From: a virus
IMG/VR virus record: IMGVR_UViG_3300020182_003256
Location: 1 to 27,889 of that record
Strand: one strand, 5' to 3'
DNA: 27,889 nucleotides
Made by a program: the position numbers and the translations under genes. This document shows, one piece after another, positions 638 to 15,636 of the stretch (within the stretch, counting starts at the first letter, position 1; each line of letters starts with the position of its first letter). The notes under the pieces are model-generated. The model ran no database searches. It was not told the DNA's origin and worked only from the letters and a program-made list of their open reading frames with translations.

Positions 638-817
638 ATGATAGAATTTTTTAAACATGCTTTAGGATTATGTGGTGAACATTGGCACCCAAACATTTTT
701 ACAATTATCTTAGGTGGGCTTGGATTATCCGCTCCATTTTCGTATATTAAATACAAATTAAACAGTTATGGCAATAAAAATAAGTCACGAAACACCCCTA
801 TGTCTATTAAACGATAG
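638..817 (+). CDS. Small single-span membrane protein, unknown function
   Basis: This 59-residue reading frame starts one base after the thyX stop (TAA A ATG) and ends with TAG at 815-817, overlapping the next gene by 50 bases in another frame. The protein begins MIEFFKHALGLCGEHWHPN and continues into a hydrophobic segment at about residues 19-34 (NIFTIILGGLGLSAPF), so it should cross or sit in the inner membrane. The CGEHWHPN stretch before the membrane segment resembles small phage proteins I have seen near replication genes, but I cannot name a family. Residues 33-38 (PFSYIK) are encoded by the same bases that form the TTTTCGTATATTAAA promoter-like box for the next gene, so the sequence probably carries two signals. 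The snug fit after thyX supports a real gene. Confidence 0.6.
   Translation: MIEFFKHALGLCGEHWHPNIFTIILGGLGLSAPFSYIKYKLNSYGNKNKSRNTPMSIKR
720..750 (+). promoter_or_regulatory. Bacteroidetes-type promoter, inside the small membrane-protein gene
   Basis: TTG at 720-722 (within CTTGG) is followed after exactly 20 bp by TATATTAA at 743-750, preceded by TTTTCG. The same spacing and boxes recur at 7513, 9434, 13351 and 15915. It would start RNA about 10-15 bases upstream of the ATG at 768 and drive the DpdA/queC/queD/queE run. It overlaps coding sequence, which lowers certainty, but the match to the intergenic copy at 7513-7544 is close. Confidence 0.5.
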
Positions 818-1559
818 TAGACGATTTAATGATTATGACTATTGTCTTCCCCATTTATTGGATGAAGAACCAGGTTATTTAGAATATTTTTTAGAATCTA
901 AAAGACAAGGTCGTTATATTATAATGGATAATTCTCTTCATGAATTAGGCGAAGCCTATAACCATGAACGTCTTGTATATTGGGTTAATGAATTAGAACC
1001 TAATGAATTTATAGTACCAGATGTTTGGGAAAATTGTGTAGAATCTATTCAAAATGCTGAAATATGGAATATTTATGATTTTCCTGAAGGAGTTGAGAAA
1101 GTTGCTGTAGTTCAAGCAAAAACAATTCATGAAGCTTCACAATGTGTTAAAGCTTATAAAAATTTAGGTTACGGTAAAATTTGTTTTTCATATGGGGCTT
1201 CTTATTATAATGATGTTTGTCCTCACCCAAATAAGGATTTAGGTAAAGCTTTAGGAAGACTTTATGTAATTTCAGCTTTAATGAAAATGGGAGATATTAA
1301 ACAAGATGATAGAATTCATTTATTAGGATGTGCTGTACCCCAAGAGTTTGGGTGGTATGAAGGTATTAATTGCATAGAATCAATTGATACATCAAACCCA
1401 GTTATGGCGACATTAGAAGATGTTCAATATAGAAATTATGGTTTATATCAAAAACCAAAAGCAAATATGAATGATTATTTTTATATGTTAAATGATCAAG
1501 TTGATTATGATCTTTTAACTTACAATTTAGATGTGTTTAAAATGATAAATAATTTATAA
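768..1559 (+). CDS. dpdA: DpdA-like transglycosylase (tRNA-guanine transglycosylase superfamily), candidate 7-deazaguanine DNA base exchanger
   Basis: The 263-residue protein looks like a short phage member of the tRNA-guanine transglycosylase/DpdA superfamily, which swaps a guanine base for a 7-deazaguanine without breaking the backbone. Supporting segments are MDNSLHELG (residues 53-61), VPD at 83-85, HLLGCAVPQEF (184-194) and IESIDTSNP (203-211). The aspartates D85 and D207 sit where the family has its conserved acid and its catalytic nucleophile; this placement is by eye. It lacks the C-terminal cysteine zinc site of bacterial TGT, as DpdA proteins commonly do. It heads a run containing queC, queD and queE, with folE nearby, so all steps to preQ0 are present. 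Context and motifs together favour a DNA-modifying DpdA over a tRNA enzyme. A promoter-like site lies just upstream. Confidence 0.68.
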   Translation: MAIKISHETPLCLLNDSRRFNDYDYCLPHLLDEEPGYLEYFLESKRQGRYIIMDNSLHELGEAYNHERLVYWVNELEPNEFIVPDVWENCVESIQNAEIWNIYDFPEGVEKVAVVQAKTIHEASQCVKAYKNLGYGKICFSYGASYYNDVCPHPNKDLGKALGRLYVISALMKMGDIKQDDRIHLLGCAVPQEFGWYEGINCIESIDTSNPVMATLEDVQYRNYGLYQKPKANMNDYFYMLNDQVDYDLLTYNLDVFKMINNL

Positions 1560-1560
1560 A

Positions 1561-1755
1561 ATGGCAAAACTAACAAGAAATGTAAATTACGCAAATTACA
1601 GATGGGAAGAATATGTGTTAACCGAAGAAGAATTAACACAGTGGAAAACGGGTGATGAAGATATCCAACAAGAGATTATAGATAATGCAGATTGGGATCT
1701 AGTAAGAGATAAACCAATTGATGATTACAGTGAACCAGAATTTATAGAAGAATAA
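1561..1755 (+). CDS. Small acidic protein, unknown
   Basis: I do not recognise this 64-residue protein. It starts one base after the DpdA-like stop (TAA ATG). After a basic N-terminus (MAKLTRNVNYANYRW) it is strongly acidic, with an EEELTQWKTGDEDIQQE segment and a tail ending EPEFIEE. No cysteines, membrane segment or known motif is visible. Conserved-looking tryptophans occur at about residues 15, 28 and 45. The tight spacing to both neighbours suggests co-translation within the deazaguanine run; no function is proposed. Confidence 0.7.
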   Translation: MAKLTRNVNYANYRWEEYVLTEEELTQWKTGDEDIQQEIIDNADWDLVRDKPIDDYSEPEFIEE

Positions 1756-1759
1756 AGAT

Positions 1760-1984
1760 ATGTTAAAAAAACAATCAATAAGGTCTAATCAGACCATTTT
1801 TATCAATAATAATGATAAATCAGCAAGTAAAGATGAAATTCTAGCACTTAGTGAATTTTGGACTGATAGAGAAGAAGGATTATTTCGAAAACTTCTTAAA
1901 CAAGGTGGAAGTACAAAAATACAAGGTACTCATTTTAAAGTGGTTGTTGAAGAAAAACAACTTAAATTACGTGACATGCAATAG
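1760..1984 (+). CDS. Small hypothetical protein upstream of queC
   Basis: This 74-residue protein is not recognised. It starts four bases after the preceding stop and ends with TAG at 1982-1984, overlapping by two bases the first arm of the pseudoknot in front of queC. The N-terminal third is polar (MLKKQSIRSNQTIFINNND). The middle (DEILALSEFWTDREEGLFRKLL) could form a helix, and the end (THFKVVVEEKQLKLRDMQ) could form short strands. There is no cysteine and no membrane segment. It probably belongs to the same message as the DpdA-like gene and queC. Confidence 0.68.
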   Translation: MLKKQSIRSNQTIFINNNDKSASKDEILALSEFWTDREEGLFRKLLKQGGSTKIQGTHFKVVVEEKQLKLRDMQ

Positions 1985-2016
1985 CGTTTGCCTATACGCT
2001 TAAAATACCTGGCAAA
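1983..2016 (+). promoter_or_regulatory. Candidate H-type pseudoknot in the queC leader (possible preQ1/preQ0-sensing element)
   Basis: AGCGT (1983-1987) pairs perfectly with ACGCT (1996-2000), leaving an 8-base loop. TTGCC in that loop (1988-1992) pairs perfectly with GGCAA downstream (2011-2015), across an A-rich linker TAAAATACCT. That is an H-type pseudoknot, the topology of the compact preQ1-I riboswitches, and it sits 15 bases before the queC start. The primary sequence does not clearly match the known preQ1-I consensus, so the ligand is inference from topology and position only. TATAAATA at 2017-2024 equals the T4 late-promoter box but may be chance in AT-rich DNA. Confidence 0.4.
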
Positions 2017-2031
2017 TATAAATAAATAAAA

Positions 2032-2904
2032 ATGACACAATTGGAATTAAATTTTAAGGACTCACGACGTCCGAAACACGCAGTAGTATCACTTTCAGGT
2101 GGTATGGATTCAAGTACATTATTGCTTAAATGTCTTGATAAATTTGAAACAGTAACAGCTTTATCCTTTGACTATGGTCAAAAACATAAGGTTGAACTAA
2201 AAAGAGCAAGAGCATTAGTTGATTATTTAAATAGACAATGTACTGACAATAATTGTTATGGTGGTTGTAGAATTAAATATCAGGTTATTAAATTAGATGG
2301 ATTAGTTGATTTACTAGATTCAGCATTAGTTGAAGGTGGTGAAGAAGTACCAGAAGGGCATTACGCAGCTGAAAATATGAAAGCTACTGTAGTACCTAAT
2401 AGAAATAAAATATTTGCTTCTATAACTCAGGCAGTTGCTTTATCAGTAGCAAATAGAACAGAAGAAGGAACATCAATTGCTTTAGGAATTCATGCCGGGG
2501 ATCATGATATTTACCCTGATTGTAGACAAGAATTTAGAGATGCTGATGATCATGCTTTTAGAGAAGGTAATTGGGATGCTGAAAGAGTAGGTTATTATAC
2601 TCCTTATCTTAAAGGTGATAAATTTACTATTCTTCAAGATGGAGAAGTATTATGTGAAAAATTAGGTATTGATTTTGATGAAGTTTATGCTAGAACAAAC
2701 ACTTCATATAAACCAACACCTGAAGGGTGGTCTGATTACAAATCAGCATCATCTGTAGAACGTATTGAAGCGTTCATTAAATTAGGAAGACCTGATCCAG
2801 TACAATATGCCGATGAAACAGGTCCTGTTGATTATGAAACGGCAAGAATATATGTTGAACAAGTTCTTTCAGAATACGAAAAAGAACAATTAAAAATTAA
2901 ATAA
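2032..2904 (+). CDS. queC: QueC-like 7-cyano-7-deazaguanine synthase, lacking the usual zinc cysteines
   Basis: QueC converts 7-carboxy-7-deazaguanine to preQ0, using ATP and ammonia through the amide. The 290-residue protein has the PP-loop SGGMDSS (22-28), FDYGQKH (46-52), VVPNRNKIF and a YPDCRQEF segment, all typical of QueC. The usual C-terminal zinc site, roughly SCY followed by CGxCxSC, is missing: the aligned stretch reads TNTSY (222-226) and SDYKSASS (234-241), so the four cysteine positions are S225, D235, S238 and S241. An insertion near residues 70-79 instead carries C70, C75 and C79, which could form a different metal site. The protein is longer than the common 220-240 residues. 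It may complete preQ0 or stop at the amide intermediate. A candidate RNA pseudoknot lies in its leader. Confidence 0.9.
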   Translation: MTQLELNFKDSRRPKHAVVSLSGGMDSSTLLLKCLDKFETVTALSFDYGQKHKVELKRARALVDYLNRQCTDNNCYGGCRIKYQVIKLDGLVDLLDSALVEGGEEVPEGHYAAENMKATVVPNRNKIFASITQAVALSVANRTEEGTSIALGIHAGDHDIYPDCRQEFRDADDHAFREGNWDAERVGYYTPYLKGDKFTILQDGEVLCEKLGIDFDEVYARTNTSYKPTPEGWSDYKSASSVERIEAFIKLGRPDPVQYADETGPVDYETARIYVEQVLSEYEKEQLKIK

Positions 2905-2905
2905 A

Positions 2906-3127
2906 ATGGAAAATAAAGAATTAAATAAAGAAGTAGATAAAATAGTTAACCAATTAGCAGGTGCTAATATAAAAGAATTACCTGATGCTTACATGCACCA
3001 AAAAATCAGTTTTATTAAATCTGGTGTAAGAATTTTAGGTTATTGTTTTATCCCATTTAGCTTGGGTTGGGCAACTGCTTTTCTTATATTGAGTGAAGTA
3101 ATAGGTATAATCGAAGAATTAGTATAA
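2906..3127 (+). CDS. Small membrane protein, unknown
   Basis: This 73-residue protein starts one base after the queC stop (TAA A ATG). The first 30 residues are polar and helical-looking (KELNKEVDKIVNQLAGANIKE). Residues ~38-70 are hydrophobic (VRILGYCFIPFSLGWATAF, then LILSEVIGIIEELV), enough for one long or two short membrane spans. I do not recognise a family. It lies between queC and the thioredoxin gene in one apparent message. Confidence 0.68.
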   Translation: MENKELNKEVDKIVNQLAGANIKELPDAYMHQKISFIKSGVRILGYCFIPFSLGWATAFLILSEVIGIIEELV

Positions 3128-3143
3128 ATTAAATAAATAAAAA

Positions 3144-3401
3144 ATGAATAGAGGAATTTTGTATTTCAGCGCACCATGGTGCGGACCTTGTAAAGTAATG
3201 TCTCCTTTGATGGAACAAATGGAAAAACAAGGAAAAATTAAGATGAAAAAAATTAATGTTGATTATGATGCTTCAATGCCTCAAAAATATAACATTAAAA
3301 GTGTACCTACTATGGTCTTAACAGATTTAGATGGTAATGAAATTAAAAGAACAACAGGAAATATGTCTGAGGTTCAAATAATGGAGTTTTACAATGGGTA
3401 A
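3144..3401 (+). CDS. Thioredoxin-like redox protein (WCGPC)
   Basis: This 85-residue cytoplasmic thioredoxin-fold protein carries the active site APWCGPCK at about residues 10-17 and the cis-proline loop SVPTMVL at about 53-59. It is shorter than cellular thioredoxin (~105-110) because the N-terminal strand and helix are missing, as in other phage mini-thioredoxins. Phage versions usually reduce ribonucleotide reductase or assist a replication protein; the window shows no reductase gene, so the partner is unknown. The final codons (ACA ATG GGT AA...) contain an ATG at 3394 that appears to be the original start of queD, overlapping this stop by eight bases. Confidence 0.9.
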   Translation: MNRGILYFSAPWCGPCKVMSPLMEQMEKQGKIKMKKINVDYDASMPQKYNIKSVPTMVLTDLDGNEIKRTTGNMSEVQIMEFYNG

Positions 3402-3436
3402 ATTTTCATAGTAAAGTATTTGACGGGTTTAGTACA
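3394..3436 (+). other. queD: Displaced 5' end of queD: one-base frame break after codon 4
   Basis: ATG at 3394 reads MGKFS and then TAG (3409-3411). If one T of the TTTT run at 3403-3406 is skipped, translation continues HSKVFDGFST directly into the queD frame before FRQW. KVFDGFSTVFRQW resembles the expected N-terminal strand of QueD relatives in front of the THCRFLHGY motif. The ATG overlaps the thioredoxin stop by 8 bases, typical of this genome. This may be programmed +1 slippage at TTT TCA, a real mutation or a sequence error. Confidence 0.6.
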
Positions 3437-3856
3437 GTGTTTCGTCAATGGAAAGCTGAAGATACACATTGTAGATTTTTACATGGATATGGTATTAGTT
3501 TCAAAGTATATTTTGAAGGTGATTTAGATGATAGAAACTGGGTTTGGGATTTTGGTGGTATGAAGCGTGCTAAAACCCAAATTGAGGGTAAATCACCTAA
3601 GGAATGGATGGATTATATGTTTGACCATACTGTTATCATTGCAGAAGATGACCCAGGTATGAAAGGTTGGGAAACTATGAATCAACTAGGAGTAATTCAA
3701 TTAAGAGTAATTGAAGCTACAGGTGCAGAAAAATTTGCAGAATATATTTATAATAAGCTCAATGATTTTGTATTTGAAGAAACAGATAATAGAGTTAGAG
3801 TAACAAAAGTTAAATTTATGGAGCATGGAAAAAATGCTGCATATTATAGTGAATAA
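3437..3856 (+). CDS. queD: QueD-like 6-carboxy-tetrahydropterin synthase
   Basis: QueD converts the FolE product, dihydroneopterin triphosphate, to 6-carboxy-5,6,7,8-tetrahydropterin, the second step to preQ0. Numbered from the GTG at 3437, the 139 residues include THCRFLHGYG (10-19). H11 and H16 fit zinc ligands and C12 the catalytic cysteine of the C-x-x-x-H-G-H/Y family motif. VWDFGGMKRAK (36-46) and MFDHTVII (61-68) match the usual DFG/DHxxLN segments, and a glutamate lies in the C-terminal KFMEHGKNAAYY segment. GTG is the first usable start in this frame, but it cuts off the first strand. The true start is probably ATG 3394, giving about 153 residues if the frame break there is bridged. 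The gene sits between thioredoxin and queE. Confidence 0.85.
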   Translation: MFRQWKAEDTHCRFLHGYGISFKVYFEGDLDDRNWVWDFGGMKRAKTQIEGKSPKEWMDYMFDHTVIIAEDDPGMKGWETMNQLGVIQLRVIEATGAEKFAEYIYNKLNDFVFEETDNRVRVTKVKFMEHGKNAAYYSE

Positions 3857-3877
3857 AAAACCACTTAAAAAAATTGT

Positions 3878-4654
3878 ATGTTAAAAAGAATAGAAGATTA
3901 TAATAAAAATCTACCTGTTGTAGAAATTTATACAGCAGTTCAGTCAGAAGGATCAAGAGCAGGTTACCCAACAGTAGTTATTAGAACAACAGGTTGTACT
4001 CATCGATGTTATTTTGGAGAAGGTGGTTGGTGTGACTCTTGGTATACTAGTATTCATCCTGAAAAAGGACATTTTAATTTCAAAGACATTATTGAAATGT
4101 ATGAGAAAAATCCTCATATAAAAGAAATGATGTTAACTGGAGGCTCACCTACTATGCATCCTGCTTTGGTAAATGAATTAACACATTTTGCACATGAAAA
4201 TGATATTTTTATTACTATCGAAACTGAGGGATCTCATTTCCTCCCCACAGACTATCCTATTAATTTATTATCTATTAGCCCTAAGTTTAGTAATTCTGTA
4301 CCAGTTGTAGGTGTTTTAACTCCCCAAGGTAAAGAAACGGATGAAAAAATGATTAAAACTCATAATAGGCTTAGACTTAATTATGATGCAATGAAACAAT
4401 CAATTGAATATCATTCTGATTATCATATCAAACCAGTATGGGACGGTAAGGATGAAGGAGCATTAGCTGAGATTATGGAATGTATTAAAACATTAGAAGT
4501 ACCTCAACATAAAGTATGGTTTATGCCTGCTGGAGATTCAAGAGAAGCATTATTTAAGTCATACCCAGTATTATTTGATTGGGTTAGGGACAATGGTTAT
4601 AGAATGACATGGAGACCTCACATTATTGCCTTTGAAGACAAAAGAGAAGTATAA
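3878..4654 (+). CDS. queE: QueE-like 7-carboxy-7-deazaguanine synthase (radical SAM)
   Basis: QueE uses an iron-sulfur cluster and S-adenosylmethionine to rearrange carboxy-tetrahydropterin to 7-carboxy-7-deazaguanine. The 258-residue protein has the QueE opening EIYTAVQSEGSRAGYPTVVI. It is followed by C40, C44 and C52, the only clustered cysteines, giving an unusual C-x3-C-x7-C spacing instead of the radical-SAM C-x3-C-x2-C. The SAM-binding GGEP-type motif appears as TGGSPTMHP, and later come IETEGSHF and SISPKFSN, both seen in the QueE family. It follows queD and is followed by a small overlapping gene. Together with FolE, QueD and QueC it completes the preQ0 route. Confidence 0.9.
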   Translation: MLKRIEDYNKNLPVVEIYTAVQSEGSRAGYPTVVIRTTGCTHRCYFGEGGWCDSWYTSIHPEKGHFNFKDIIEMYEKNPHIKEMMLTGGSPTMHPALVNELTHFAHENDIFITIETEGSHFLPTDYPINLLSISPKFSNSVPVVGVLTPQGKETDEKMIKTHNRLRLNYDAMKQSIEYHSDYHIKPVWDGKDEGALAEIMECIKTLEVPQHKVWFMPAGDSREALFKSYPVLFDWVRDNGYRMTWRPHIIAFEDKREV

Positions 4655-4788
4655 TGTCTAAAGAAGAAGCACTTGAAATACTGGAAGAAATATCAGAAAA
4701 TGTTAGTGTTTGTTGTGCTATAACAATGGAACCAGATGAAGTTTTACTATTAATAGATAAATTAAAGAAATACTTAGAAAATGTATAA
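4654..4788 (+). CDS. 44-residue acidic protein, unknown
   Basis: The ATG at 4654 shares its A with the queE stop (TAATG). The frame runs to TAA at 4786-4788, overlapping the nuclease start by eight bases. The product begins MSKEEALEILEEISENVSVC and ends LIDKLKKYLENV: two amphipathic helices around a central CC pair (residues 20-21). The perfect stop/start overlaps at both ends argue for a real gene. No family recognised. Confidence 0.55.
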   Translation: MSKEEALEILEEISENVSVCCAITMEPDEVLLLIDKLKKYLENV

Positions 4789-5119
4789 ATACAATGCAAA
4801 ATTAGATAGAGTTGTTGATGGAGATACTGTTGATGCCCTTGTAGATTTAGGATTTAATACTTGGAAAAAAGTAAGAATTAGAATGGTAGGGATGAATGCC
4901 CCAGAGTCAAGAACTAGAGATTTAGAAGAAAAAGCAAGAGGAATTGCTGCTAAAATTAGATTAGAAGAATTACTAGAAAAAGGATCATTTATTTTAGAAT
5001 CTCAAGGTGTAGGTAAATACGGTAGATGTTTAGGAATTATATTTGTTAATGAAGTAAATGTAAATAAACAATTAATAACTGAAGGACATGCTGTAGAGTA
5101 TAATGGAGGGAAAAGATAA
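4781..5119 (+). CDS. Staphylococcal-nuclease-fold (thermonuclease-like) protein
   Basis: This 112-residue SNase-domain protein covers nearly the whole length. RVVDGDTVDALVDLGF (residues ~10-25) gives the calcium-binding aspartates, RIRMVGMNAPES holds the first catalytic arginine and the glutamate, and GKYGRCLG holds the second catalytic arginine. VNKQLITEGHAVEY is the usual closing segment. There is no signal peptide, so it acts in the cytoplasm, perhaps degrading host DNA or RNA during infection. If phage DNA carries deazaguanine, selectivity for unmodified DNA is possible but not shown. It overlaps the preceding small gene by eight bases. Confidence 0.9.
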   Translation: MYKYNAKLDRVVDGDTVDALVDLGFNTWKKVRIRMVGMNAPESRTRDLEEKARGIAAKIRLEELLEKGSFILESQGVGKYGRCLGIIFVNEVNVNKQLITEGHAVEYNGGKR

Positions 5120-5120
5120 A

Positions 5121-5507
5121 ATGCATTATATAACCCAACACCCAATTAAAAAATCAGATTTAGGATTCCATGGAAATTTATTTGGAGGAAAATTACTAGC
5201 TTGGTTAGATGCAGCAGCTGCTTCTTATGCTTCTGAGTTTTGTGATACCCCACGAATGGTAACTAAGAGTATAGATAAATGCATTTTTAATAAACCTGCT
5301 AAAGAAGGTCAGTTATTAAAAATATATGGTGATGTAAAAAAAATTGGAACTACTTCTTTAACATTATATATGGAAGCACGTTCACATAATGTTTATAATG
5401 GAAAGCAAAATGTTATTTTAGCAACAAATATTACATTTGTTAGAATAGATGAAATGGGAGATGCTATCCCAATATCAGATAGAGTTAAATCAAAATTAAA
5501 AATATGA
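5121..5507 (+). CDS. Hotdog-fold acyl-CoA thioesterase (YciA/BFIT type)
   Basis: The protein (128 residues from the ATG at 5121) starts MHYITQHPIKKSDLG and contains GNLFGGKLLAWLDAAAA, the helix-entry motif of hexameric hotdog acyl-CoA thioesterases, with the catalytic aspartate in WLDAA. VTKSIDKCIFNKPAKEGQ and LATNITFVRID are the following strands. I chose 5121 over the in-frame ATG at 5103 because a GGAGG lies ~11 bases upstream (5105-5109) and family members start close to this point; 5103 would add MEGKDK. An acyl-CoA hydrolase is uncommon in a lytic phage. It could alter host lipid or CoA pools or the acylation of a surface molecule. It is followed by a four-base ATGA overlap with the next gene. 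Confidence 0.85.
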   Translation: MHYITQHPIKKSDLGFHGNLFGGKLLAWLDAAAASYASEFCDTPRMVTKSIDKCIFNKPAKEGQLLKIYGDVKKIGTTSLTLYMEARSHNVYNGKQNVILATNITFVRIDEMGDAIPISDRVKSKLKI

Positions 5508-6007
5508 ATCAATTAATTAGTGCTAAAGATATAGATATCCAAACAAAAATAGTTGCAAAACAAATATCAGATGAACATAAAGGTGATAAAACTCCTGTAG
5601 TAATGGTTGGGTTACTTAATGGTTGTTTTGCGTTTTATGCTGATTTAGTACGGGCTATGCCAATTGATGTGGAATGTGATTTTATGCGCGTTAAATCGTA
5701 TATAAATCGTAAACAAGGCGATATAGTTATTGCTAAAGACCTTGAGACTCCTATTAAAGGTAAGCATGTTTATATTGTAGATGACATTTATGACACTGGA
5801 AATACTATGAAAGTTGTTATTGATTATTTAAATGTTAAAAAACCAGCTTCTATTTCAATTGTAAGTTTAGTTACTAGAAAATCATCCCCAACACCTCCAG
5901 TTAAAATGTTTAATGCTTTTAAGATTGATAATGAGTGGTTAGTTGGATTTGGGATGGATAATGAAAAAGGTTATTTAAGAAATTTACCTGCTATTTATTC
6001 TCTATAA
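5504..6007 (+). CDS. Purine phosphoribosyltransferase (hypoxanthine/guanine type)
   Basis: Type-I phosphoribosyltransferases join a free base to PRPP. The PRPP-binding loop VYIVDDIYDTGNTM (residues ~85-98) is clear, preceded by MVGLLNGCFAFYADLVRAM (PPi loop region) and DFMRVKSY, in the order of hypoxanthine-guanine PRTs. The length, 167, is typical. It starts with an ATGA overlap on the thioesterase stop. Next to a deazaguanine pathway it could salvage host guanine or hypoxanthine for dGTP or GTP (the FolE substrate), or conceivably handle a deazapurine base. The base specificity cannot be read from sequence alone. Confidence 0.88.
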   Translation: MNQLISAKDIDIQTKIVAKQISDEHKGDKTPVVMVGLLNGCFAFYADLVRAMPIDVECDFMRVKSYINRKQGDIVIAKDLETPIKGKHVYIVDDIYDTGNTMKVVIDYLNVKKPASISIVSLVTRKSSPTPPVKMFNAFKIDNEWLVGFGMDNEKGYLRNLPAIYSL

Positions 6008-6025
6008 TATTTATAATAAAATACT

Positions 6026-7498
6026 ATGGGAAGACCTCTTAAACACGCTACATCAAAACCTGCAAGATCTATGAGGCAGGGGAATATTGCTGCTCGAGTA
6101 GGAAAAGGAAATATTGGCCCTACATCTGCAACAGGATATTATAATGCAATTGAACCTACAGAAATTGGTAAGTATGTAGTTTATAAAATGTTAGGAGCTT
6201 CCCAAGCACCTTTATCTTTTACTCCTCAAAATGATAATGAATTTTTAAGATTAGCTAATCAAGAAGGAGCAGGAGTTTCTGATGTCACATCAGCTTTAGA
6301 ATGGTTTGCTGCGCAAAATAATTTTACAGTAGCAGCAATAATTAATTCTACAGGAAGCTTGAACGTTGATCCTTTTTGTATTTTTGATGCATTAGGTAAT
6401 AACCCATCACCTCAAGGCAAATGGTTTAATTCAGTTGCTCCTTTAGATAATATGAATGTAGATAATAGAGAGCATGCTTTATCTGAAATTGTATGTATGG
6501 AAAATACTACTGCTTATTGGGGTGCCCCCTATACTGGTACTATTATTTATGAAATAAATGGAAGTAGTATTACTACAAAGGTATCAGCTACATCAGCCCC
6601 TTCTAATGGCTCATTTGCAGCTATTGCTGGTCGTCGCTATGTAGGTAATAAACCAATATCAATTAAAGGTGTAAGTAATGGTCATGCTTTTTGTCCTATT
6701 TCTTATTATGGTAAAGAGTGGGGGTATTACTATTCTAGATATCAACCCCCAATAGTATTTTTCTATTGTCTTAAAGATAATACATCTATACAAATTTTTG
6801 TAGCTAATTCCTCATCAAGTGGTGGTAGAACCGGAATGGCGAATACTACATTACTTACAACTATTACTGGAAATGAAAATGATGTAGTAAATTATACATT
6901 TCCATCCTCACCAGATTATAGAAATTATTATATTACAATTAAATCAAATGAGCCTGTAGTAATGACTGCTAGAGGCACCTTAGGAGATAAATCAATTGGA
7001 GCTTTAGCAGGTGAGTATAATTATAGAAGAAGAAATGCATATGAAGCAACTGCTGAAAATACATCACCTTCTACTCAAGCTACTAATGTAGTTTATGATA
7101 ATTCTTATAATTCTTGGGCATTATCTATTGCAGATGGTTCAGGTGGGGATAATGAAGTAAGTATGCCTTTAGATATGTTAACTAAAAATTATACTTTTGG
7201 AGAACGTTTAAATTCTTATTATATTGTAAGTCCTTATGCTAGTAATAATATTACAATTTCTTCTTGGAATGGTGGTAGTTGGGAAATATTCTCAACTCAC
7301 ACAGTTAATGGAACAATAACTAGCCCTGCTTTTGCTGAAAGTGGATCACAAAGTGGTGGTGGGGGTAATTTTAATGGTAACAGATTATGGAAGTTTACAG
7401 GTGATGATCCCTTTTACATTGTTGTTAACGATAATGGTAGAGATGAAGAAATGTTATTAGGATGGAATACCGGAGAAGTAGATACATTTTTTATGTAA
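6026..7498 (+). CDS. Probable virion structural protein (490 residues)
   Basis: I place this protein by character rather than by a named domain. It starts MGRPLKHATSKPARS, followed by a basic, glycine-rich arm, and MGRPL-type N-termini recur in structural proteins of marine T4-like phages. The rest is rich in Ser, Thr, Asn, Gly, Tyr and aromatic strands with few charges, typical of beta-rich capsid, fibre or neck proteins. A glycine run (SGSQSGGGGNFNGN) lies near residue 440. There is no signal peptide, enzyme motif or coiled coil. An 18-base gap separates it from the phosphoribosyltransferase, and a hairpin follows its stop. It is isolated among metabolic genes, which suggests a decoration or adsorption protein rather than part of the main head-tail cluster. 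Function uncertain. Confidence 0.65.
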   Translation: MGRPLKHATSKPARSMRQGNIAARVGKGNIGPTSATGYYNAIEPTEIGKYVVYKMLGASQAPLSFTPQNDNEFLRLANQEGAGVSDVTSALEWFAAQNNFTVAAIINSTGSLNVDPFCIFDALGNNPSPQGKWFNSVAPLDNMNVDNREHALSEIVCMENTTAYWGAPYTGTIIYEINGSSITTKVSATSAPSNGSFAAIAGRRYVGNKPISIKGVSNGHAFCPISYYGKEWGYYYSRYQPPIVFFYCLKDNTSIQIFVANSSSSGGRTGMANTTLLTTITGNENDVVNYTFPSSPDYRNYYITIKSNEPVVMTARGTLGDKSIGALAGEYNYRRRNAYEATAENTSPSTQATNVVYDNSYNSWALSIADGSGGDNEVSMPLDMLTKNYTFGERLNSYYIVSPYASNNITISSWNGGSWEIFSTHTVNGTITSPAFAESGSQSGGGGNFNGNRLWKFTGDDPFYIVVNDNGRDEEMLLGWNTGEVDTFFM

Positions 7499-7511
7499 AA
7501 ATTTATATTTA

Positions 7512-7529
7512 GTTTGGAGTTAACCAAAC
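7512..7529 (+). terminator. Hairpin after the 490-residue virion-like gene
   Basis: GTTTGG (7512-7517) pairs perfectly with CCAAAC (7524-7529) around the loop AGTTAA. It lies 13 bases after the stop at 7498. There is no T tract, so intrinsic termination is uncertain; RNA 3'-end protection or processing are alternatives. The left arm contains the TTTGG that serves as the -33 box of the folE promoter. Confidence 0.45.
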
Positions 7530-7544
7530 ATATTCGTATATTAA
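7513..7544 (+). promoter_or_regulatory. Bacteroidetes-type promoter for folE
   Basis: TTTGG at 7513-7517 and TATATTAA at 7537-7544 (within TTCGTATATTAAAT) are separated by 20 bp, counted from the last base of TTG. The site is intergenic and starts RNA roughly 15 bases before the folE ATG at 7566. It matches the site at 720-750 in both boxes and in the spacer-end TTCG. Confidence 0.68.
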
Positions 7545-7565
7545 ATCAAATAAAAAGTTATATTA

Positions 7566-8261
7566 ATGGAAAACAAACGAAGAAAAATTCACGAAGAATT
7601 AGAAGTAGTACAAACAGGTTTTGCAAATGGAGTTGCTGAAGGATTTCCCCTAGAACAATCTGAAAAAGATAAAATGATTGATGAAGCAGAAGTAGCTTAT
7701 GGTCAATTTTTAGATGCTTTAAAATGTGATTGGAGAAATGATCCAAACTCAATGGAAACCCCAAGACGTGTAGCTAAAGCATATGTAAATGATTTATGGG
7801 CAGGTAGATATACTGCAATGTCTCCTATTACATCATTTCCTTCTGATGGTTATGATGGAATTATTATTGAAAGAAATATTCCTTTAACATCAATGTGTTC
7901 ACACCACCACCAAACAATTGGGGGGGTAGTTCATATTGGTTACATAGCAGGAGAAGGTGGTCAAGTAATTGGTTTAAGTAAACTAAATAGAATCGTTGAG
8001 TTATTTGGTCGTAGAGGAGCTATCCAAGAACAATTAACATCAGCTATTCATAATGCAGTATGTAAAATTACTGAAGGTAATAAAGGTGTTATTGTTACTA
8101 TTGTTGGTACTCATAATTGTGTGAGTTGTAGAGGTGTAAAACACCAAGGAGCAGCTATGGTTACAACCAAAGCATCAGGAGTATTTAGAGATAATGATAA
8201 TTTAGCAAGGAAAGAATTTTTTGACAGTCTGAAGATTAACAACGGAGGACATAATATTTAA
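7566..8261 (+). CDS. folE: GTP cyclohydrolase I (FolE)
   Basis: FolE opens GTP to dihydroneopterin triphosphate, the entry to both folate and 7-deazaguanine synthesis. The 231-residue protein has METPRRVAKAYVNDLWAG and the zinc and catalytic segment MCSHHH with C111 and H114. VIGLSKLNRIVELFGRR is followed by QEQLT, and HNCVSCRGVKHQG has C185 as third zinc ligand. An N-terminal extension of about 45 residues is usual for bacterial FolE. Together with QueD, QueE and QueC it supplies the complete preQ0 route, although it lies 3 kb from queE behind its own promoter. That may let the phage boost GTP flux independently. Confidence 0.96.
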   Translation: MENKRRKIHEELEVVQTGFANGVAEGFPLEQSEKDKMIDEAEVAYGQFLDALKCDWRNDPNSMETPRRVAKAYVNDLWAGRYTAMSPITSFPSDGYDGIIIERNIPLTSMCSHHHQTIGGVVHIGYIAGEGGQVIGLSKLNRIVELFGRRGAIQEQLTSAIHNAVCKITEGNKGVIVTIVGTHNCVSCRGVKHQGAAMVTTKASGVFRDNDNLARKEFFDSLKINNGGHNI

Positions 8262-8274
8262 AATAATAATAGTT

Positions 8275-8772
8275 ATGAGTAAAAGTAATGTACCATTTGT
8301 AAATGAAGTAGAGGAATTTAATTCCACTATGGGTAAACCAAACAATTATGAACCTACAATCCCTGAAAAAAAGGAGTGGCAATTTGTTTATGATTTCATC
8401 CTCGAAGAACTCGAGGAATATAAACATGCTTGTGAAACAGGAGATATTGTTGAGATTCTTGATGCTTTATGTGATATTGCCTACGTTTCGTTGGGTAATG
8501 GAACTATGCTACATGGTCTTAAGGATAAGATATGGCCAGCATATCAAGAAGTACAAGGGTCGAATATGTCAAAGGCTTGCTCAAGCGAAGAGGATGCACA
8601 AGCGACCGTGGAGCTTAGATCAAAAGAGCAAGAGGAACCATGTCACTATGAGAAGGTTGGAAAATATTATATTGTCTATAGAACACGTGATAGAAAAGTG
8701 ATGAAAAATATTAATTACTACCGCCCGGACCTTAAACAATTCTTTACTAAGGAAGAAATTAAAAATTCATAA
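8275..8772 (+). CDS. MazG-like nucleotide pyrophosphohydrolase (all-alpha NTP-PPase)
   Basis: The N-terminal ~110 residues match small phage-type NTP pyrophosphohydrolases. VNEVEEFNSTMGKPNNYEP opens the domain, EELEEYKHACETGD provides the magnesium-binding ExxE-type helix, and DALCDIAYVSLGNG provides the second acidic helix. The segment ends GSNMSKACSSEEDA, the SNMSK typical of this family. The C-terminal part (YEKVGKYYIVYRTRDRKVM) is a short strand-rich tail. Such enzymes hydrolyse (d)NTPs to monophosphates, so it may trim unwanted nucleotides during synthesis of modified DNA. It is 13 bases after folE and probably shares its message. A weak all-AT hairpin overlaps the stop (8760-8778). Confidence 0.85.
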   Translation: MSKSNVPFVNEVEEFNSTMGKPNNYEPTIPEKKEWQFVYDFILEELEEYKHACETGDIVEILDALCDIAYVSLGNGTMLHGLKDKIWPAYQEVQGSNMSKACSSEEDAQATVELRSKEQEEPCHYEKVGKYYIVYRTRDRKVMKNINYYRPDLKQFFTKEEIKNS

Positions 8773-9482: not shown

Positions 9483-11165
9483 ATGTATAAAAAATGTTTT
9501 GCACAACGAAAAAAAGGAAATCAATTTTTGATTCACCTTTGGGAAGATACAGGTTATAGTAAAGTTGAATGGACTAATCAAGCTTATGTCGAGTGTGATG
9601 ATAATCAATCTACTCACACAGGTCTAAATGGAGAATCTTTAAAGAAAATAGCAAATTGGAAGTCAGATAATTCTAAACTTCACTTCCATGATATGACCCC
9701 ATACCAGAAATTTTTAGTAGAAAAATATGGGGTTAATGATGAACCTTCTACTACCCAAAAAGAATTTTTCTTTGATATTGAAACAGAAATGGGTGATGCT
9801 CTTACTGAAGATTATATCAAATCAGCTCCTAAAAAAGTAACATCAATTGCTTGGTACGATAAACAAGTAGATGAATGGGTTATTTTAATTTTAGACCCAA
9901 AATCTAAATTAAAACGAACAAAGGCTAAAACAAAGGAAATTATACCTTGTGCTACTGAAGAAGAGTTATTACTTAAATTTCTAGAACGATTTAGAGAAAT
10001 TGATCCTGATATTGTGGTAGGATGGAATAGTGATTATTTTGATATTCCATATTTGTATTATAGAATGTGTAATGTATTAGGGCAAGATGTAGCACGTTAT
10101 TTATCCCCAATAGGCTATGTTCGAGAAACCCCTTGGTTTAAGGATCAATATATCCAAATTGCAGGAGTTGAATCTTTAGATTATATGAGACTACATAAAA
10201 AGTTTAGTTGGAAAGATGAGCCATCTTTTAAATTAGATGTTATTGGTGAAAAATATGCAGGTTTAAATAAAATTGAATATGATGGGAATTTAGATAAATT
10301 ATTTGAAGATGATCCACTTAAATTTATTCAATATAACTTTCGAGATGTTGAAATATTAAAAGTATTAGATGAAAAATTAGAATATTTATCATTAGTAAAA
10401 AACTTAGCTCATAAAGGTAAACATAATTATAGTGAAGTTTATGCTAATACAAAAACTCAAGATGGAGCAATTTCAGCTTACTTACTAAGTAAAAAAATAG
10501 TTCCACCTGCTAAAGATCGTAATCCCCTATCTAAAAAGAATTATGCTGGTGGTTATTTATTCTGTCCTAAGGCTGGTATTTACAATTATGTATTTGATGA
10601 GGATTTAACTTCACTATACCCTTCAATTATAATGACTATTAATATTGGTAAAGAAACTATGGTTGGTAGGATTATAGATGCTGACGACAGAAATAATCGT
10701 TTAGGGTTAAATGATTTAAAACGTAGGGATCCTGAAGAAGAATTTATAGTAGAGAATATTAAAAGAAGTAGAACAAAAGTTAATGTTGGTCGATTAATTT
10801 CTATGATAGAACAAAATGAACTATCAGTATCAGCTAATGGGGTATTATTTAACACAAATCGTGAATCAGTACTATCAACCATATTAAAGAAATGGTTTGA
10901 TGAAAGGGTTTTATATAAAAACAAAATGAAAAAAGCATATAAAGCCGGGGATAAAGAGGCAGGTGCTGGTTTTCATATGAAACAATATACTATGAAGATT
11001 TTACTTAATTCATTATATGGCGCTACGGCTTTAGGGTCATTCCGTTATGGGAATGTTATATTATCTGAAGCTATAACGCTTAGTGGACAGCGAATTATAC
11101 AGGAATCTGCACTAGCAGCTAATAGACATATGAATAAAGTAATGAAAAATGAAATAAAATTATGA
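9483..11165 (+). CDS. 43: Family-B DNA polymerase, N-terminal piece (exonuclease, palm motifs A and B)
   Basis: This is the first part of a T4 gp43-type replicative DNA polymerase. The 3'-5' proofreading domain is intact: FDIETE (D98, E100), GWNSDYFDIPY (D187) and YNFRDVEI (Y284, D288). The polymerase domain follows with motif A DLTSLYPSI (D374) and motif B KILLNSLYGA (K505, N509, Y512, G513). The frame stops after NRHMNKVMKNEIKL, before motif C, so this piece cannot polymerise alone. The next gene starts inside its stop (ATGA, four-base overlap) and supplies motif C. The two pieces total 870 residues, close to T4 gp43 (898). Split gp43 genes are known in some Aeromonas T4-like phages, so this can be natural. 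Confidence 0.93.
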   Translation: MYKKCFAQRKKGNQFLIHLWEDTGYSKVEWTNQAYVECDDNQSTHTGLNGESLKKIANWKSDNSKLHFHDMTPYQKFLVEKYGVNDEPSTTQKEFFFDIETEMGDALTEDYIKSAPKKVTSIAWYDKQVDEWVILILDPKSKLKRTKAKTKEIIPCATEEELLLKFLERFREIDPDIVVGWNSDYFDIPYLYYRMCNVLGQDVARYLSPIGYVRETPWFKDQYIQIAGVESLDYMRLHKKFSWKDEPSFKLDVIGEKYAGLNKIEYDGNLDKLFEDDPLKFIQYNFRDVEILKVLDEKLEYLSLVKNLAHKGKHNYSEVYANTKTQDGAISAYLLSKKIVPPAKDRNPLSKKNYAGGYLFCPKAGIYNYVFDEDLTSLYPSIIMTINIGKETMVGRIIDADDRNNRLGLNDLKRRDPEEEFIVENIKRSRTKVNVGRLISMIEQNELSVSANGVLFNTNRESVLSTILKKWFDERVLYKNKMKKAYKAGDKEAGAGFHMKQYTMKILLNSLYGATALGSFRYGNVILSEAITLSGQRIIQESALAANRHMNKVMKNEIKL

Positions 11166-12094
11166 AGCATTTAGAAGATACTCCTTGGTGGATTTGTGAT
11201 CCTGAAGATACAAATTATGTTGCATACTCTGATACCGATTCAATCTATATACATGCAGAACCATTACTTAGACATTTATACCCTAACTTTGAAGAAATGT
11301 CAAGTGAAGAAAAAGATGATGTTTTAGAAGAAGCAGCTTTAAAATACCAAGATATTATTACTGACTCCTATAGTGATCTAGCATCAGATTGTTTTAATGC
11401 TAGAGGTAAACATAGACTTGAAATGAAAACTGAATGTGTGATCAGATCAGCTTATTTTAGAGCTACAAGAAGATATGCTCAGTGGATTACTAAACAAGAA
11501 GGAATTGTAAAAGAATCACTTGATGTAAAAGGTCTTGAATTTAAAAAAGCAAATTTCCCTCCAGTGTTGGGTAAATTTTTTCACAAGACCTTAGTTGATG
11601 TTTTGAAAGGAGAACAACAAGAAGAGATAGATAAAAGGTTAAAAAAATTCAAAACCCAAATATTAGATGGTACAATTCCTCTTACCGAATTAGGTAACCC
11701 AACATCCGTAAAAACATTAAATAAATATACTGAACGAAAAGCAAGGGCAGGAGAAATGTTTACAGTAGTAGCTAAAGGAGCTCCAGCAGCTGTAAGGGCA
11801 GTTATAAGATATAATGATTTACTTAATTTTTGGGGGTTAAACAAAACCCACCGTCAAATTGCTCAAGGTGATAAAATTAAATGGATTTACTTAAAACCAA
11901 ACCCATACCAAATTGACGCAATTGCCTTTTTAGAGTGGGATTTGCCAGAAAAAATTCGTATGTTTATTGAGCAAAATGCAGATAGGAAAAAGATTTTCGA
12001 ATCAATACTGCTTAATAAACTAGAAGGATTTTATAATGATTTAGGGTGGACTTTAAATTTAAACCCTTATAAAGAAATGTTTTTTAAATTTTAA
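11162..12094 (+). CDS. 43: Family-B DNA polymerase, C-terminal piece (motif C, thumb)
   Basis: This 310-residue protein begins MKHLEDTPWWICDPEDTN and reaches polymerase motif C at once, YSDTDSIYIH with catalytic D24 and D26. The thumb follows, with KTECVIRSAYFRATRRYAQW and VKGLEFKKANFPP, both seen in gp43 thumbs. The C-terminal FYNDLGWTLNLNPYKEMFFKF is the expected end of the family, including the tail that docks on the sliding clamp. The ATG overlaps the stop of the N-terminal piece (TTATGA), which permits coupled translation. The split falls in a variable linker between motifs B and C, so the two proteins can plausibly assemble into one enzyme. The clamp gene follows after two bases. Confidence 0.9.
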   Translation: MKHLEDTPWWICDPEDTNYVAYSDTDSIYIHAEPLLRHLYPNFEEMSSEEKDDVLEEAALKYQDIITDSYSDLASDCFNARGKHRLEMKTECVIRSAYFRATRRYAQWITKQEGIVKESLDVKGLEFKKANFPPVLGKFFHKTLVDVLKGEQQEEIDKRLKKFKTQILDGTIPLTELGNPTSVKTLNKYTERKARAGEMFTVVAKGAPAAVRAVIRYNDLLNFWGLNKTHRQIAQGDKIKWIYLKPNPYQIDAIAFLEWDLPEKIRMFIEQNADRKKIFESILLNKLEGFYNDLGWTLNLNPYKEMFFKF

Positions 12095-12912: not shown

Positions 12913-13332
12913 ATGAGTACATTATTTTATGAACACACCCCATTCGATATTTTATATCGAAATTTTTTCAAAGCAGATGAGCAATATGCCCCTGCATTAA
13001 ATTCCAAACAACCACATCCTCTAGACATCTACTACGATCAAGAAGGCATTTACTTCGAGATTGCGTGTACTGGTCTTACTAAAGAAGATATTAACATTGA
13101 GATTGAATCTGATGTTTTACGTATTTCTTATGATAAACCAAAAGATGAGGAACCAAAAGATCTATCAGGGTATATTTACCATGGTTTATCTAGAAAGTCA
13201 TTTAGTTTAGGATATAAAATTGCTCCTAAATTTGACTTAACAAAAATAAATGCTGAAATGGAAGATGGATTATTAAAAATTGATATCCCACTTTCAAAAG
13301 AAGCAAAACCAAAAGCAATTAAAATCAAGTAA
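12913..13332 (+). CDS. hsp20: Small heat-shock protein, Hsp20/alpha-crystallin family
   Basis: Hsp20 holds unfolding proteins in a refoldable state without ATP. The 139-residue protein has a short N-terminal arm (MSTLFYEHTPFDILYRNFF). The alpha-crystallin domain runs from about residue 36 (PLDIYYDQEGIYFEIACTGL) to the signature AEMEDGLLKIDIPL at about 113-126. The C-terminal tail AIKIK contains the I-x-I type anchor for oligomer assembly. Hsp20 genes are common in T4-like marine phages. It has its own promoter-like site, a structured leader and a hairpin after the stop, so it appears to be a single-gene message just ahead of the groES-groEL unit. Confidence 0.94.
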   Translation: MSTLFYEHTPFDILYRNFFKADEQYAPALNSKQPHPLDIYYDQEGIYFEIACTGLTKEDINIEIESDVLRISYDKPKDEEPKDLSGYIYHGLSRKSFSLGYKIAPKFDLTKINAEMEDGLLKIDIPLSKEAKPKAIKIK

Positions 13333-13352
13333 CCTAAATGCGCCTTTAGGTT
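13331..13352 (+). terminator. Hairpin at the end of hsp20
   Basis: AACCTAAA (13331-13338) pairs perfectly with TTTAGGTT (13345-13352) around the loop TGCGCC. The stem includes the last two bases of the hsp20 stop codon and is followed by GGTTTATATT. The right arm plus loop can alternatively pair with the 5' leader at 12851-12862. Confidence 0.6.
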
Positions 13353-13381
13353 GGTTTATATTGATTCTCTTCGTATATTCA
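13351..13381 (+). promoter_or_regulatory. Bacteroidetes-type promoter for the groES-groEL unit
   Basis: TTGG at 13351-13354 abuts the terminator stem. After 20 bp from the last base of TTG comes TATATTCA at 13374-13381, in the extended box TTCGTATATTCACGT (13370-13384). It is intergenic, ~24 bases before the ATG at 13405. TATAAATA at 13385-13392 equals the T4 late box, but its overlap with the start region of this promoter makes that reading less likely. Confidence 0.7.
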
Positions 13382-13404
13382 CGTTATAAATAAAAAATAG
13401 TTAT

Positions 13405-13700
13405 ATGTCAAAAATTACAGATCCAAGGATGAAGCCCTATTACATAGGCAAAGATTCACACTGTTACACAGTATATGAAGTAGTAACTCCACAAGAAAAA
13501 TATTTAGAAAAAGGTAGTGAAGGTAAAGATTATGAAAAACCTGTAGCCCACTATTCTAGCTTTGGTAATGCTTTGAAAAAAGTTATGAAAGAAAAACTTC
13601 ATAATGAAACAGAAGAGTATACAAGTATCAAGGATTATATTGAACGATGGGAACAGTTACAAAATGAAATTACAGAAATTTTAACACAAAAACAATTATA

Positions 13701-13701
<1 letters not shown>
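13405..13701 (+). CDS. Conserved-looking phage protein, unknown (98 residues)
   Basis: I do not recognise a domain. The N-terminus ITDPRMKPYYIGKDSHCYTVYE looks like a compact strand-rich unit, followed by a charged loop (KYLEKGSEGKDYEKP). The C-terminal half is helical (SFGNALKKVMKEKLHNETEEY and DYIERWEQLQNEITEILTQ). A single cysteine lies near residue 20. It is the first gene of the chaperonin unit and its stop overlaps the groES start by one base (TAATG), so translation is probably coupled. Any chaperone link is inference from position only. Confidence 0.7.

Positions 13702-15636
<1,935 letters not shown>

Follow-up and report, generated by a model that had tools for sequence, protein, structure and literature searches.

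A phage gene cluster with a predicted preQ0 pathway, a DpdA-like transglycosylase, and a purine phosphoribosyltransferase

Does this viral locus encode a system that places a 7-deazaguanine in phage DNA, which base would that be, and what would become of the displaced guanine? The window, i.e., the whole stretch of 27,889 nt that was analyzed, is part of a phage of ~164 kb represented by three such contigs (G001 to G003). Analysis of the window revealed one cluster of a FolE gene, QueC-, QueD-, and QueE-like genes, and a gene at 768 for a 263-aa protein. These five open reading frames had been listed in a sequence-only reading of the window, and their coordinates proved correct. A purine phosphoribosyltransferase (PRTase) gene in the same cluster had gone unmentioned. 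The features are as follows.

768..1559, + strand: DpdA-like transglycosylase, 263 aa, of the immuto/CP220 family (TGT/DpdA fold of the model, sequence relatives)
2032..2904, + strand: QueC-like 7-cyano-7-deazaguanine synthase without the zinc Cys motif (Pfam 1.6e-36, PHROGs 4.4e-38)
2906..3127, + strand: small open reading frame, detected beside QueC in many relatives (no Pfam match)
3144..3401, + strand: thioredoxin, conserved in the cluster (Pfam Thioredoxin 1.2e-17)
3437..3856, + strand: QueD-like 6-carboxytetrahydropterin synthase (Pfam PTPS 1.7e-14, PHROGs 1.9e-37)
3878..4654, + strand: QueE-like radical SAM 7-carboxy-7-deazaguanine synthase, CX3CX7C (PHROGs 1.7e-53; in Pfam only Radical_SAM, 6.4e-07)
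5504..6007, + strand: HGPRT-type hypoxanthine-guanine phosphoribosyltransferase (TIGR01203 8.6e-44)
7566..8261, + strand: FolE, GTP cyclohydrolase I (Pfam PF01227 3.3e-41)
8275..8772, + strand: MazG-like nucleotide pyrophosphohydrolase, adjoining FolE (PRA-PH 6.3e-10, phrog_671 8.8e-28)

The protein at 768 had been called TGT/DpdA-like, and this assignment had been staked on a fold search, which placed 768-1559 inside rather than outside the TGT superfamily. An AlphaFold2 model of the protein (pLDDT 93.0, pTM 0.89) was submitted to Foldseek, where TGTs ranked on top (about 1e-7) and the DpdA structure 7ui4 ranked 10th (6.0e-07), and to VIA-align, where 1iq8 gave Z 17.0 and 7ui4 gave Z 17.0 (rmsd 3.5, 234 aligned). 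As modeled, the protein has the TGT-type barrel of the TGT/DpdA fold. No Pfam match up to E 1 was obtained for 768-1559; two PHROGs matched, both of unknown function, and no clear relative emerged from NCBIfam, PADLOC, or a phmmer search of the PDB. PF01702 (TGT) had no match anywhere in the window, and for this reason the protein was assigned to the superfamily only. Similarity to 7ui4 by sequence was weak (E 0.64 by phmmer, 0.16 by profile), and such weak similarity to known TGT/DpdA chains counts against our main reading. D54 and D207, candidates for the catalytic Asp pair, were invariant across 45 rows; only the D207 stretch aligned to 7ui4, weakly (i-Evalue 0.26). CxCxxC, which we take to be the motif of the TGT zinc subdomain, occurred in 0/65 aligned rows and does not separate DpdA types, because the 9g DpdA row also lacks it. 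DNS, PD, VVQ, and DTSNP were conserved in 64 of these 65 rows; only the distant 9g protein lacks them. The annotated DNA guanine transglycosylase of Flavobacterium phage vB_FspM_immuto (Immutovirus) and the protein of Campylobacter phage CP220 match the 768 protein at 37% over 98 to 99% of the query (E 4e-51 and 1e-38, respectively). By this full-length similarity and the shared motifs, the protein belongs with the immuto/CP220-type DpdA. Cui et al. reportedly found in 2023 that a phage DpdA3 subfamily permits complete guanine replacement; the CP220 protein, and with it the 768 protein, probably belongs to DpdA3.

FolE, QueD, QueE, and QueC had been read as present with their motifs. The Pfam and PHROGs matches bore out all four genes, with NCBIfam scores below curated cut-offs, but the usual metal motifs of QueC and QueD were missing, and this too counts against the main reading. 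FolE matched the GTP cyclohydrolase I profile, and its CSHHH and NCVSCRG lined up with E. coli FolE; we take the Cys and His residues of these motifs to be metal-site ligands. The canonical QueC signature, as given in PMC13329287, comprises SGGxDS, YxQxHxxE, VPxRN, YPDC, Tyr189, and a C(x)8CxxCxxC zinc motif. Among 40 distinct clade QueC sequences, SGGxDS, YxQxHxxE, and VPxRN were each found in all 40, as was Tyr189 (as TSY), and YPDC was found in 39. The zinc motif was found in none of the 40, nor in any of 56 aligned clade rows, and the protein is therefore named QueC-like. In QueD, HGY replaced HGH, and [FY]SxxxRQ stood where 9g and CP220 have the upstream GHR, both in 50/50 clade rows. HGH and GHR are presumably parts of the zinc His triad; since this triad is altered, the protein is named QueD-like. 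Its true start probably lies upstream of the GTG at 3437 that had been taken as the start, because the strand SKVFDGFST, common to relatives, is encoded in frame before this codon. From the upstream stop at 3368 down to 3437, the frame has no ATG, GTG, or TTG (stretch inspected, 3380-3442). The QueE cluster spacing was CX3CX7C in 37/41 rows and CX3CX8C in 2/41 (X2 in 9g). QueE here thus does not fit the radical SAM spacing CX3CX2C; that the spacing varies among QueE proteins is evident from an NCBIfam model named Cx14CxxC.

The neighborhood is kept among relatives. A search with the 768 protein brought up 61 IMG/VR loci, of which 59 have QueC on the same strand; in the two loci without QueC (L007 and L053), the sequence ends 1 base and 1.8 kb, respectively, after the 768 homologue. 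This pairing exceeds chance. Comparison with near relatives gave dN/dS values (simple NG86) of 0.01 to 0.22 for DpdA, QueC, QueD, QueE, HGPRT, and FolE, with QueD against L010 (0.42) as the sole exception. The cluster genes are under purifying selection.

The sequence-only reading had seen no QueF, and PF14489 likewise had no match in the ~164-kb contigs G001 to G003. Across 10 related records including G001 to G003, PF14489 gave two weak matches, in G005 and G009; these were discounted, since they coincide with FolE of L051 and L056. PF00551 (formyltransferase) had no match in the same 10 records. The G001 genes beyond the window were read by eye, a procedure that unfamiliar base-modifying enzymes could escape. 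The complete GTP-to-preQ0 set with a DpdA-like protein is the set linked to dPreQ0 in Hutinet 2019 (PMC6884629), where the minimal gene set yields dPreQ0 in phages CAjan and Rosebush, and dPreQ0 is absent from CAjan mutated in dpdA. The earlier claim that the known phage system uses exactly these parts holds for the pathway logic; it does not extend to the transglycosylase, which is of the immuto/CP220 family, or to the QueC and QueD metal sites, which are altered relative to 9g and CAjan. The best prediction for the base is dPreQ0, and dADG is less likely.

The PRTase scored 149.2 bits with TIGR01203, against a cut-off of 150. The PRPP-loop catalytic Asp was found in 89/89 viral HGPRT rows with a residue there. 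Two base-pocket positions were Arg (88/88) and Trp (86/86) in the viral rows with a residue there and Lys and Phe in the bacterial relatives (7/7); the latter presumably correspond to Lys165 and Phe186 in human HGPRT. The PRTase is HGPRT here and XGPRT-like in sister phages and in CP220, whose CPT_0182 was missed by PF00156 and found with an XGPRT alignment; in other 7-deazaguanine phages, an XGPRT-like domain is fused to FolE. Of 32 loci that reach from QueE to FolE, 26 carried either the HGPRT or the XGPRT-like type, a count that includes related phages and several near-identical loci (L001-L006 and others) and is not one of independent events. The script gave 26/26 (17 HGPRT, 9 XGPRT-like); six loci were added in which FolE is present and QueE was missed by tblastn (L049, L050, L051, L057, L058, and L059; a profile recovered QueE in all four records searched), and none of these six carried a PRTase. 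Pathway genes were found within 6 kb of 88/91 HGPRT loci. For two of the exceptions (L176 and L178), the records carry pathway genes further away; for the third (L177), no pathway gene was found in its 22-kb fragment. Among the best 80 XGPRT loci, 76 likewise had pathway genes nearby, against 12/80 and 24/80 for two neighbor genes taken as a comparison (best 80 kept of at least 505 in the XGPRT search, of 560 in the thioesterase search, and of 182 in the Hsp20 search). A PRTase was not found in the relatives G005 and G006 (~156-161 kb; same DpdA family), nor, with PF00156 and the XGPRT alignment, by which a PRTase may go undetected, in 9g, CAjan, nt-1, HVTV-1, and Dp-1, five DpdA phages with measured modification. 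The PRTase is therefore dispensable.

We propose, with a probability of roughly 0.6, that the cluster makes preQ0, that the DpdA-like protein base-exchanges it into DNA, and that HGPRT recycles the freed guanine. FolE, QueD, QueE, and QueC would convert GTP to preQ0, which the DpdA-like protein would swap for guanine in replicated phage DNA. The virion DNA would then carry dPreQ0, or dADG if QueC releases the amide intermediate, with guanine replaced to some extent and the DNA presumably protected from restriction. Each base exchange would free one guanine, which the cluster HGPRT would most likely convert to GMP, and cellular kinases would return GMP to GTP, feeding FolE. The modeled fold, the conserved DpdA motifs, the match to the immuto and CP220 proteins, and the dPreQ0 of phages with the minimal gene set speak for the base exchange of preQ0. 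The share of QueE-to-FolE loci with a PRTase, the closeness of pathway genes to HGPRT and XGPRT loci, the XGPRT-like gene of CP220, and the domain fused to FolE speak for recycling. The dispensability of the PRTase and the Arg and Trp in the HGPRT base pocket count against the recycling step. A broader and more tentative proposal, to which we give slightly less than even odds, is a closed guanine loop in 7-deazaguanine phages, in which a dedicated phage PRTase recaptures DpdA-displaced guanine as GTP for the next base. Its three genetic forms would be the HGPRT gene, the XGPRT-like gene, and the XGPRT-like domain fused to FolE. If so, exchange of the guanine of a whole genome (52,183 G here) could proceed without depleting the GTP of the host.

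The same pathway could end in dADG, with QueC stopping at the amide or a later step hydrating the nitrile. CP220 and CPt10, with a transglycosylase of the same family, are reported to carry dADG and not dPreQ0, at 100% of dG (PMC8306585), a point that counts against the main reading; moreover, QueC works via ADG (PMC13329287), and QueC here has no zinc motif. We nevertheless consider this outcome rather unlikely, as QueC is nearer to that of immuto (69% identical), a phage with a clear QueF that requires preQ0, and the catalytic motifs of preQ0-forming QueC are retained. The QueC product is thus likely preQ0. To our knowledge, no QueF is known in CP220 or CPt10. That the genes raise queuosine in host tRNA instead of modifying phage DNA, as raised by Hutinet 2019 for pathway phages without DpdA (PMC6884629), is highly improbable here, given the DpdA-like gene and the lack of a QueF match in the phage contigs.

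Other explanations concern the PRTase. HGPRT might act on preQ0, the modified nucleotide being polymerized into DNA and the DpdA-like protein having a side role. The replacement of Lys and Phe by Arg and Trp in the viral base pocket would suit such a route, and a dGTP-level route was once proposed for Campylobacter phages (PMC6884629). The DpdA-like protein, however, is strongly conserved and has the TGT/DpdA fold. The XGPRT-like type found in this slot retains the Lys (by eye), and its fusion to FolE suggests a role at the beginning of the pathway. We regard the nucleotide route as improbable. A better candidate, though still doubtful, is a general nucleotide-salvage gene that lies among the pathway genes by chance. 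Nucleotide genes are often grouped in phage genomes, no PRTase was detected in two relatives that share the DpdA family, and in Brevundimonas phage MaInes FolE adjoins XPRT in a displayed region of 10 kb that has no annotated Que gene. Accident is harder to reconcile with two PRTase types occupying the same slot, with the weaker link of the neighbor genes to the pathway, and with the fusion to FolE. Base exchange of preQ0 with recycling of guanine remains our preferred reading.

Restriction palindromes were counted in G001 and in G021, a relative picked for having neither QueC nor the DpdA family. The observed/expected ratios for GATC, CTAG, TGCA, and CATG were 0.76, 0.68, 0.75, and 0.56 in G001 and 1.09, 1.15, 1.08, and 0.71 in G021, a comparison that is uninformative because G021, which carries FolE, QueD, QueE, and a TGT-like protein, is no unmodified control. 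Taken at face value, the figures run against relief from restriction, as palindromes containing G and C are not freely used in G001.

These results extend the range of phages with predicted 7-deazaguanine DNA by one conserved clade. The QueC- and QueD-like proteins are natural enzymes without the usual metal ligands and would be useful for asking what role zinc plays. If the PRTase link holds, it would account for the fate of displaced guanine, and the gene could serve as a marker of systems in which much of the guanine is exchanged.

Enterobacteria phage 9g and Escherichia phage CAjan share the pathway logic, combining DpdA with FolE, QueD, QueE, and QueC or Gat-QueC; unlike the present phage, neither was found to have the PRTase, and the 9g DpdA is not recognizably similar in sequence (its alignment row lacks the motifs). 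CP220 and CPt10 have a DpdA homologue (CPT_0056, 37%), QueC, QueD, QueE, FolE, and the XGPRT-like CPT_0182, but their genes are scattered over the genome and their QueC and QueD keep the zinc motifs. Immuto has the related DpdA (37%), a QueC that likewise has no zinc motif, a QueD with HGY, QueE with CX3CX7C, FolE, and a purine PRTase between QueE and FolE. It differs in having QueF and a formyltransferase, a QueC ~12 kb upstream of the remaining pathway genes, a family A DNA polymerase, and an XGPRT-like rather than HGPRT-like enzyme. The core gene set described here is a further case of the known phage 7-deazaguanine type; less ordinary are the QueC without a zinc motif, the altered QueD zinc site, and the purine phosphoribosyltransferase within the cluster.

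Positions 73,498-101,388 of the IMG/VR contig G001 (163,571 bases) match the window at 99.9-100%, and the DpdA locus recurs at 100% protein identity in two further contigs of about 164 kb. Translations of G001, read by eye, revealed a family B polymerase, clamp, clamp loader, ribonucleotide reductase and GroEL/ES, which suggests that the phage is a T4-like myovirus. The window has a G+C content of 31%. All the pathway genes named in the sequence-only reading, encoding FolE and the QueC-, QueD- and QueE-like proteins, were found at 7566, 2032, 3437 and 3878, respectively, and its interpretation, that this pathway and a transglycosylase place a 7-deazaguanine in the phage DNA, is supported as a prediction from sequences and structural models. 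The NCBIfam scores of the four genes lie below the cut-off, as do those of the pathway genes scanned in Flavobacterium phage immuto and Campylobacter phage CP220. The order DpdA, QueC, small ORF, thioredoxin, QueD, QueE, FolE, MazG and PolB, with other genes interspersed, is largely conserved in loci with DpdA 55-100% identical, and the cluster genes are under purifying selection (dN/dS, with some dS values >1). The family B polymerase gene (9483-12094) is split into two ORFs with a four-base overlap; a single 839-aa ORF of the related contig G021 matches both halves, and some relatives carry a small ORF resembling 1760-1984 between them. Hsp20-, GroES- and GroEL-like proteins are encoded at 12913-15636 (by eye).

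The transglycosylase candidate (768-1559) matched no Pfam family and matches 32 of 50,697 phage records, the closest being immuto phages and CP220-type Campylobacter phages (up to 37%) and the remainder weaker. An AlphaFold2 model built with an alignment of 45 homologues (pLDDT 93.0) gave TGTs and the bacterial DpdA 7ui4 as top structural matches. D54, D85, Q116, G143 and D207 are invariant across the 45 homologues, and the motifs DNS, PD, VVQ and DTSNP are common to the immuto and CP220 proteins; we take these residues to resemble TGT active-site positions. The alignment to 7ui4 covers such residues at the D207 stretch only, and weakly. The TGT-type motif CxCxxC is absent from this protein and, by this pattern, likewise from the 9g DpdA.

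According to PMC13329287 (section 6), canonical QueC is marked by the motifs C(x)8CxxCxxC, SGGxDS, YxQxHxxE, VPxRN and YPDC and by a Tyr189, lying within the zinc region, that is essential. Among 40 distinct clade QueC sequences, SGGxDS, YxQxHxxE and VPxRN occur in all, YPDC in 39, and Tyr189 is retained as TSY in all; the zinc motif occurs in none, and no CxxC is left in the tail of 56 aligned rows (duplicates included). Unlike these, the QueC proteins of CP220 and 9g keep the zinc motif. The QueC model (pLDDT 81.9; 77-93 across residues 221-250) is still closest to the QueC structures 2pg3 (1.3e-11) and 3bl5 (6.0e-11). In all 50 clade rows of QueD, HGY replaces HGH, [FY]SxxxRQ replaces the upstream GHR, and a His, which might be a substitute ligand, precedes the Cys. 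The QueE cluster is spaced CX3CX7C in 37 of 41 rows and CX3CX8C in two. Conservation and low dN/dS argue for the QueC-, QueD- and QueE-like proteins being working enzymes. Where the QueD of relatives begins, the window (3371-3437) has no standard start codon; the start used may be a rare one located at the stop of the thioredoxin gene.

As the predicted base, dPreQ0 is put ahead of dADG. Neither QueF (G001-G003) nor a formyltransferase (10 related records) was matched, and QueC shares 69% identity with the immuto protein; since immuto has a clear QueF, preQ0 is the likely product of this QueC. The dADG content of CP220 and CPt10, put at 100% of dG in PMC8306585, counts against this ranking. 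For Campylobacter phages, Hutinet 2019 (PMC6884629) observed no DpdA and considered a dGTP route. The CP220 homologue CPT_0056 would, as judged from its sequence, fill that gap. A family of this sort was reportedly described already by Cui in 2023, as DpdA3, so no novelty is claimed.

One further gene of the cluster encodes a purine phosphoribosyltransferase (PRTase):

5504-6007, HGPRT-type gene (NCBIfam)

HGPRT matches occur in just 18 of 50,697 phage records. Within flanks of up to 6 kb per side, DpdA, QueC, QueD, QueE or FolE was found at 88 of 91 IMG/VR HGPRT loci (68 from one search; a second, of which the best 80 of 110 hits were used, added 23). The three others lie in G021, in G023, whose record contains QueE, and in a 22 kb fragment in which no pathway gene was found. 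G021 (172,973 bases) has elsewhere, at L197:5899-8033 and L197:15784-17034, FolE, QueD, QueE and a 416-aa TGT-like protein (PF01702, 1.2e-05, 25.0 bits, under the cut-off of 26.3), and shows no match to QueC; its phage may use 7-carboxy-7-deazaguanine or a product derived from that base. Ten DpdA loci without HGPRT encode another PRTase, which shares 47-56% identity with the immuto enzyme and belongs to a type whose nearest NCBIfam model, below cut-off, is xanthine phosphoribosyltransferase. A PRTase is present in 26 of 32 loci spanning QueE to FolE (17 HGPRT, 9 XGPRT-like), in no case as two ORFs. For XGPRT-like genes, the best 80 of at least 505 loci were examined, and pathway genes flank 76 of them (28/28 where both flanks are complete). 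As controls run through the same script, the best 80 of 560 thioesterase loci gave 12 (5/43) and the best 80 of 182 Hsp20 loci gave 24 (17/33), FolE being present in 23 of these 24; in all PRTase counts the phages are related to each other and the searches favour near relatives. The hotdog-fold thioesterase adjoining HGPRT (5103-5507) has 560 relatives in IMG/VR contigs and is thus common in phages. The 490-aa protein between HGPRT and FolE (6026-7498) has a weak adhesin-domain match, and its counterparts in relatives are dissimilar or absent.

CP220 carries an XGPRT-like gene, CPT_0182, whose record names a purine phosphoribosyltransferase domain. Three further phages, Sphingomonas phage MMDA13, Vibrio phage VpKK5 and a Stenotrophomonas phage, all have annotations for QueC, QueD, a TGT/DpdA and a radical SAM gene of the QueE type. 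Their FolE proteins have 295-300 residues, the FolE domain (about 116-296) being preceded by about 110. This N-terminal part aligns with XGPRT-like proteins, retaining RGG, DD..D[TS]G, a Lys and W...PWE (by eye), with weak profile scores (PRK09177: VpKK5 1e-07, Stenotrophomonas phage 0.0028; PF00156: MMDA13 0.0096). For the N-terminal part from MMDA13, matches occur in 33 phage records, duplicate entries among them, and in 30 of 30 annotated records the match overlaps a gene named GTP cyclohydrolase; the domains were checked in three. The word phosphoribosyltransferase is absent from the MMDA13 paper, and no report linking phage 7-deazaguanine, FolE or DpdA to a phosphoribosyltransferase was found in a literature search that missed key papers, so prior publication is possible.

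The PRTase is a probable guanine-recycling module. Base exchange would release one guanine for each modified base, and G001 contains 52,183 G; a guanine phosphoribosyltransferase would turn the released guanine back into GMP, which cellular kinases would convert to GTP, the substrate of FolE. The fusion of an XGPRT-like part to FolE and the occupation of one slot by two PRTase types fit such recycling. An argument against it is that neither the related contigs G005 (160,908 bases) and G006 (155,669) nor phages 9g, CAjan, nt-1, HVTV-1 and Dp-1 yielded a PRTase in the searches. The phage HGPRTs also have Arg and Trp where seven of seven bacterial relatives have Lys and Phe, so their use of guanine stays putative. 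The core of the cluster belongs to an already known type of system; what sets it apart as a variant worth testing is the alteration of QueC and QueD, together with the probable guanine-recycling module.
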